Below, in pieces: positions 51,734 through 52,323 of a DNA stretch of 64,000 nucleotides. The stretch's first letter is position 1. Each line of letters opens with the position of its first letter. The notes under the pieces are model-generated. The model saw only the letters and a list, made by a program, of their open reading frames with translations, was not told the DNA's origin and did not search any database. Origin of the DNA: Verrucomicrobiia bacterium (GTDB lineage Bacteria > Verrucomicrobiota > Verrucomicrobiia > Verrucomicrobiales > DEV007); assembly GCA_030425385.1 (NCBI GenBank), contig JAUIAH010000024.1, forward strand, positions 1 to 64,000. Reading direction: 5' to 3'. The translations under genes and the position numbers were made by a program.

Positions 51734-52255
51734 ATGTATCGTATCCTGACCTCATGCATCATCGGCCTTACCCTGGCCGCTGGAGGCCTCACAGCCACCG
51801 CGGACACCAAGGGCAAAGGAAAGATCGCCAGCGCAGTCTCTGGCAAACTCGTCAAAGCTTCTGGGAAGAAAGTCGATGCCTTTAAGAGCGACGCTTCTCC
51901 TAGCTACTACCTCGCCTATCATTCAGCTAGTTGGTGAGGCGCTTGTAAGCAAGTGACTCCACAGTTGGTGGAGTTCTACAAGGGTCTCGATGGTAAGAAA
52001 GATCGGAAGTTGGAAATCGTCCTCGTCAATCACGATAGCAATCAGAAGGGCATGGATCAATACATGACGAAGAGTAAGATCAACTTTCCCGGGCTCAAGC
52101 ACTCGGAGTCTAACAAGAACGCGCTCGCCACGGCGACGAAAGTGGAATACTTGCCCACGATCGTCCTCACCGATGCCAATGGCAAAGTGGTGGCCTCCGG
52201 TTACGGCGCGGATTGTGCCAAAGTCATCGCCAAAGCGAAAGCGGTCGCGAAATGA
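51734..52255 (+). CDS. Exported thioredoxin-like selenoprotein, Sec encoded by in-frame TGA
   Basis: One frame runs from ATG 51734 to TGA 52253-52255, interrupted only by TGA at 51935-51937. Read as selenocysteine it gives 173 residues with Sec68. The signal peptide (RILTSCIIGLTLAAGGLTATA) exports the protein. The active site reads SASW-U-G-A-C-K, matching thioredoxin's WCGPCK with Sec at the attacking position and Cys71 as resolving residue. The fold goes on with VEFYKG, EIVLVNHD, and VEYLPTIVLTD, whose Pro matches the cis-Pro of thioredoxins. A SECIS-like hairpin follows the TGA. Cut into two ORFs, it would look like a short lipoprotein-like gene and a 100-residue fragment. It resembles nucleoredoxin/TlpA thiol reductases. 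Confidence 0.9.
51935..51937 (+). other. In-frame UGA codon, predicted selenocysteine (Sec68)
   Basis: The codon lies exactly where thioredoxins have the first active-site Cys, between W67 and G69. Coding sense continues unchanged after it in the same frame. Confidence 0.88.
51955..51975 (+). promoter_or_regulatory. Bacterial SECIS-like hairpin
   Basis: GACTCCAC (51955-51962) pairs with GTGGAGTT (51968-51975), giving 8 bp with the outermost a G-U pair. The loop is AGTTG, with GU at 51964-51965. The loop's G lies 27 nt after the UGA, inside the known spacing range for bacterial SECIS elements, which bind SelB through a GU-containing apical loop. It overlaps codons for VTPQLVE. Confidence 0.78.
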
Positions 52256-52286
52256 ATCAGCAATATTGTTAGCACAGCACACTTCC

Positions 52287-52323
52287 AAGGGCCCGTTCTC
52301 CGCGAGGAGGACGGGCCTTTCTT
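52287..52323 (+). terminator. Rho-independent terminator after the selenoprotein gene
   Basis: AAGGGCCCGTTCTCC pairs with GGAGGACGGGCCTTT around a GCGA tetraloop: a 15-bp stem with two G-U pairs. A short T-rich run (TTTCTT) follows. It lies 31 bp after the stop codon. Confidence 0.85.

Follow-up and report, generated by a model that had tools for sequence, protein, structure and literature searches.

An in-gene hairpin read as a bacterial SECIS element in a thioredoxin-fold selenoprotein gene of Verrucomicrobiales

Bacterial SECIS (bSECIS) elements follow a compact set of rules, as given in the available text of PMC13188914. The apical loop has 3–9 nt and the upper stem 4–16 bp; position one or two of the loop is a G, with a G or U frequently coming next; the Sec-UGA and the loop are 16–37 nt apart; and the MFE is at most −7.5 kcal/mol (PMC13188914). 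In the SECIS of E. coli, the available text of PMC8659212 describes an apical GU that contacts SelB and, in the upper stem, a U that bulges from the 5′ arm. For other families, the available text of PMC1794560 already reports remnants of SECIS-like structures in homologues with Cys.

We investigated a hairpin that follows an in-frame UGA in a stretch of 64,000 nucleotides (the window) from a Verrucomicrobiia bacterium of the order Verrucomicrobiales. Measured against the bSECIS rules, its 5-nt loop, its 8 bp, the G in the second loop position followed by U, the spacing of 25 nt between UGA and loop, and the energy of the isolated strict hairpin (−10.8 kcal/mol) all lie within the given ranges. 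The bulged U of the E. coli type was not found, as the window stem is formed by eight unbroken pairs and the homologue consensus contains no bulge. Taking the analyses below together, we are highly confident that this hairpin is a bacterial SECIS in a thioredoxin-fold selenoprotein gene, predicted to bind SelB and to support readthrough of the UGA.

A gene interrupted by an in-frame UGA

Plain ORF calling splits the locus, which, when translated with TGA as U, becomes one full predicted thioredoxin-like selenoprotein gene (Table 1). The Pfam domain PF13905 (Thioredoxin_8) matches residues 58–152 of the product with an E value of 5.8e-16 and runs across the UGA at residue 68. The UGA falls within the thioredoxin fold at the position of a catalytic Cys, and 23 homologues carry Cys in that column. 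Homologues align both upstream and downstream of the UGA. Among five close homologues, dN is well below dS on both of its sides; dN/dS downstream of the UGA is 0.09–0.35 (10 pairs), a rough estimate with most dS values above 1. Purifying selection on the coding sequence thus continues past the UGA. The terminal stop of the gene is also TGA (52253–52255), so that one codon would have two readings within a single gene.

The standard ORF listing, which divides the gene into two frames, is also what one would obtain if the UGA were a normal stop or had arisen by a sequencing error, in which case the gene would be broken or end at 51937. Yet this UGA is shared by 33 sequences in 29 genomes, one of them the host genome itself, and both the selection downstream and the uninterrupted Thioredoxin_8 match speak against a dead end at this codon. 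We therefore regard a stop or an error as highly improbable.

The N-terminus is hydrophobic and, judged by eye, resembles a signal peptide. The closest solved sequences are mostly tryparedoxins, and no NCBIfam model attained its cut-off against the window protein. These sequence features make an exported thiol-disulfide oxidoreductase, its active site being UGAC, the probable product. Downstream of the stop (region 52253–52322), a GC-rich inverted repeat was noticed by eye at about 52288–52322; it could be a terminator and is missing from the scan output.

Table 1. Location of the gene, the hairpin and related features
Feature	Location	Strand	Basis
Predicted selenoprotein gene, 173 codons, Thioredoxin_8-like, motif W-U-G-A-C	51734..52255	+	translation with TGA=U; PF13905; homologue alignment; dN<dS
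In-frame UGA of codon 68, predicted selenocysteine at the first position of UxxC	51935..51937	+	aligned Cys of CxxC / TGA in homologues
Putative SECIS stem, 5′ arm, GACUCCAC	51955..51962	+	sequence, fold, covariation
Apical loop AGUUG, conserved G 51964 and U 51965	51963..51967	+	loop counts in 33 Sec sequences
Putative SECIS stem, 3′ arm, GUGGAGUU	51968..51975	+	sequence, fold, covariation
Hairpin in a Cys homologue, read as a relic	L033:1666-1713
Hairpin in a Cys homologue, read as a relic	L038:1768-1815
Host selD, one in-frame TGA	C23:120876-121799 (L178)
Host thioredoxin-fold gene, one in-frame TGA	G000:C28:21860-22225 (L183)
Host thioredoxin-fold gene, one in-frame TGA	C19:14317-14751 (L184)
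Host thioredoxin-fold gene, one in-frame TGA	C55:287151-287507 (L189)
Host thioredoxin-fold gene, one in-frame TGA	C58:37800-38147 (L193)
Host thioredoxin-fold gene, one in-frame TGA	C13:768-995 (L204)
Host thioredoxin-fold gene, one in-frame TGA	C55:289832-290233 (L205)
Host thioredoxin-fold gene, one in-frame TGA	C69:36059-36325 (L208)

The hairpin in Sec and Cys homologues

The two stem arms form eight pairs, the outermost a G–U, and enclose the loop AGUUG, whose G lies 27 nt past the last base of the UGA. The initial annotation had proposed exactly this geometry, and the sequence confirms it. The fold of 51935–51985 includes the 8-bp stem and reaches −18.3 kcal/mol (z = −2.25), a stability equalled in 7 of 200 shuffles. 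A scan of the hairpin region against Rfam at a permissive threshold returned no family match. A lower helix, which also folds in the window, was considered as a conserved part of the element and discarded; it is absent from the consensus of 33 Sec homologues.

Homologues were searched in 386 genomes of the same order, 330 of which gave matches. The Sec set (n = 33) consists of 32 of the 33 rows with one TGA among the matches listed, together with one paralogue from locus L059, and comes from 29 genomes, the host included. The remaining one-TGA row (G197, L054) has TGC at the aligned codon; it was removed from the Sec set and counted with the Cys forms. The Cys set (n = 23) comprises the Cys sequences within the fetched loci, which are a subset of all Cys rows. 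A search using back-translated patterns of the window protein yielded no related loci, probably because such patterns call for a Cys codon where the gene has UGA. L059 (G006:C1:3392100-3396500) contains three Sec paralogues of the window family within 4.4 kb, one of them with the loop CGGGUU, and L014 (G274:C125) comes from a different family of the order (Akkermansiaceae isolate ANT-87, going by the matching named record L114), although its homologue falls among those of the window genus in the tree; either the gene was transferred or the contig was misbinned.

Counting from the UGA, 48 bases align without gaps across the whole Sec set. The loop reads AGUUG in 23 sequences, AGUUA in nine and GGUUG in one. 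A lack of the hairpin in Sec homologues had been named in advance as an argument against a SECIS; instead, 32/33 keep the AGUU[G/A] loop at an identical distance from the UGA, and the closing C–G pair is found in 32/33. The outlier, L059:646, has a 6-bp hairpin with the loop CGGGUU nearby.

Within the Sec set, 80.9% of stem cells are paired, compared with 59.9% after shuffling, and the stem covaries: the score of 0.538 (0.202 shuffled) was reached in 0 of 500 shuffles, which take no account of relatedness. Compensatory changes, for which the initial annotation had recommended looking, are present as double-sided changes at seven of the eight stem pairs (59 cells). Sliding the stem to other registers gave far lower covariation (0.08 to 0.25). 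Unprompted, RNAalifold predicted the inner six pairs, five of them with compensatory changes. Conservation is weak at the two outer pairs of the window stem, and the second outermost is paired in only 10 of the 32 distinct sequences, which suggests that the shared element measures about 6 bp. Sec genes have on average 5.52 of the six inner pairs and an MFE of −9.0, as against −4.4 in synonymous recodings; by stem pairing alone, 8/33 fail to beat 95% of their recodings. By the strict measure of the bSECIS energy rule, 15/33 Sec sequences pass and 18/33 are weaker than −7.5 kcal/mol.

The Cys set gives a different picture, linking the hairpin to the Sec form of the gene. Here 51.1% of stem cells are paired and covariation is 0.178, with a mean of 3.09 of the six inner pairs and an MFE of −4.0 (−3.5 in synonymous recodings); a single sequence out of 23 passes the energy rule, through an unrelated hairpin (L039). 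The initial annotation held that Cys homologues with the same hairpin would reduce it to an effect of codon choice. This was seen only in part: 21/23 do not have the hairpin, while L033 and L038 retain a stem of six unbroken pairs from the loop and have lost the G from the first two loop positions. In the tree these two group with the Sec gene L064 as its sisters (support 100/99), all three sit inside the Sec-gene group (support 91/81), and the genomes of both still encode SelB. The hairpins of L033 and L038 read as relics of a Sec-to-Cys change.

These comparisons also bear on whether the stem is a mere by-product of its codons, V-T-P-Q-L-V-E-F. The region encodes a conserved thioredoxin-fold stretch, most Cys homologues likewise have P, L and V/A there, and the conserved peptide V-T-P-Q-L-V-E might happen to give a foldable RNA devoid of function. 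With the peptide fixed, 20,000 synonymous recodings of the window gene produced eight pairs in 0.38%, all six inner pairs in 0.73%, and six inner pairs together with an AGUU loop in 0.10%. Equal stability over +15..+47 was found in 0 of 1,000 recodings and, in a second run, in 1 of 1,000. That fewer than 1% of recodings yield the hairpin upholds the earlier view that a stable stem over VTPQLVE is unlikely to arise by chance. Moreover, covariation in the stem extends over differing codons and amino acids, and the loop-coded Gln before Leu is present in 32/33 Sec proteins and 0/23 Cys proteins. A purely codon-driven stem thus has very little probability left. The last comparison further suggests the reverse dependence, in which the RNA signal appears to dictate the protein sequence at the loop-coded Gln-Leu.

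Selenocysteine machinery and the AGUU loop in other genes

The host genome encodes a complete Sec gene set. The selB gene lies on the same contig as the window gene, about 34 kb further along, and the genome also has a tRNA-Sec with the anticodon TCA, selA, and a selD gene that itself contains one in-frame TGA. Grouping genomes by the fetched forms (29 Sec, including the host, and 18 Cys), the SelB wing domain was found in 23/29 Sec-form but 3/18 Cys-form genomes (Fisher p = 5e-5). The six Sec-form genomes with no SelB match are 53–83% complete.

With this gene set, the conservation and covariation in the Sec set and the absence of the hairpin from most of the Cys set, the SECIS reading of the initial annotation is well supported. 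A ribosome arriving at the UGA of codon 68 would have the hairpin loop beginning 25 nt downstream. SelB carrying Sec-tRNA(Sec) would bind the hairpin through its apical GU, and this binding would cause the UGA to be decoded as selenocysteine rather than as a stop. Recoding to another residue, such as Trp or Cys by a near-cognate tRNA, with the hairpin merely stalling the ribosome, would be in keeping with the Cys that homologues have at this position. Nevertheless, the tRNA-Sec, SelA, SelB and SelD of the host, the SelB-type GU of the loop, and the classic pattern of Sec/Cys replacement in a redox motif leave this the least probable of the alternatives considered, with only a minute chance of being correct.

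Besides the window gene, seven thioredoxin-fold genes and selD of the host have one in-frame TGA (Table 1). This suggests that the genome has about nine selenoprotein genes, whose loops differ (AGUUG, CGGGU and others). At C55:287151 the AGUUG loop recurs, 16 nt past the UGA of that gene, and the gene at C58:37800 has the loop CGGGU; for C13:768, C55:289832 and C69:36059, the hairpins were taken from fold output only. Under the strict hairpin rule, no strong hairpin was found in selD (C23:120876) or C19:14317, which argues against a uniform rule for all selenoprotein genes of this genome.

A search requiring CAGTTRG returned 80 loci from 88 matching stretches, with 83 sites; as the loop was demanded, the search is silent on loop conservation. 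Long flanking frames surround 68 of the 83 sites, of which 43 have all six inner pairs, 15 have five and 10 have fewer. The other 15 sites include one with 6/6 pairs, in a gene truncated at the edge of its locus. With this loop-requiring pattern, Sec-thioredoxin-like genes of Planctomycetota, Desulfobacterales and unclassified bacteria were observed to combine the same CAGUURG loop with differing paired stems (L094, L098, L101, L105, L113, L115, L134, L147 and L168). The matches also include a Sec homologue in Roseibacillus persicicus (L120), a cultivated relative, and named records such as L103 and L159, whose bases around the UGA are identical to those of L012 and L015 from the window genus; on this ground the organism is assigned to Verrucomicrobiales. 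The pattern TGA-24N-CAGTTRG alone is unspecific, occurring at 20 sites in the host genome compared with 15 for the reversed control. A covariance model with stricter filters (R1) gave matches in 4 of 387 genomes of a phylum sample, all from the same order, and thus did not extend the family.

The C-AGUU-[G/A]G loop may have become nearly fixed in this and related lineages. It may be that a requirement of RNA binding overrides protein choice here, and that the loop reflects a SelB preference that spans protein families and phyla, in keeping with its recurrence at C55:287151 and in the Planctomycetota and Desulfobacterales genes; we advance this tentatively, at somewhat less than even credence. 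A loop placed within the coding sequence would then dictate the Gln-Leu that follows the active site in thioredoxin-fold proteins with Sec. The Sec, Cys and relic genes together offer a natural experiment on SECIS decay, and the same set is a natural test of how strongly an in-gene RNA signal limits a protein.

Comparison with described SECIS elements and selenoproteins

Among the papers listed by searches on selenoproteins with Verrucomicrobia, Verrucomicrobiota or related terms, none describes the window family in its title or abstract start. The UxxC thioredoxin and thiol-disulfide oxidoreductase selenoproteins in Table 1 of PMC13188914 share with the window protein the thioredoxin fold, the UxxC motif and many Cys homologues, but differ from it in that its best Pfam match is Thioredoxin_8. 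As several of the UxxC thioredoxin-like families in that table may include the window gene, we claim no new protein family. What the locus adds is a covariation-backed SECIS family in Verrucomicrobiales, a new example of a known SECIS type.

The Cys homologues L033 and L038 resemble the remnants described in the available text of PMC1794560 in their Cys codon, retained stem, nesting in a Sec clade and SelB-encoding hosts. Unlike those remnants, they belong to a thioredoxin-like family and have lost the early-loop G. With the E. coli-type SECIS, as presented in the available text of PMC8659212, the window hairpin shares an upper stem-loop soon after the UGA and an apical G and U; in contrast, the lower stem of the window family is unconserved in relatives.

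As expected of a bSECIS, the stem is maintained by compensatory changes in Sec homologues and absent from Cys homologues, with two exceptions read as relics, and the host has SelB, tRNA-Sec, SelA and SelD. The bSECIS model in the available text of PMC13188914 and the window hairpin both have a stem-loop inside the coding sequence just after the UGA, with a 5-nt loop, a G followed by U, and similar spacing. However, the loop of the window family, AGUU[G/A], is much more uniform than the bSECIS rule requires.
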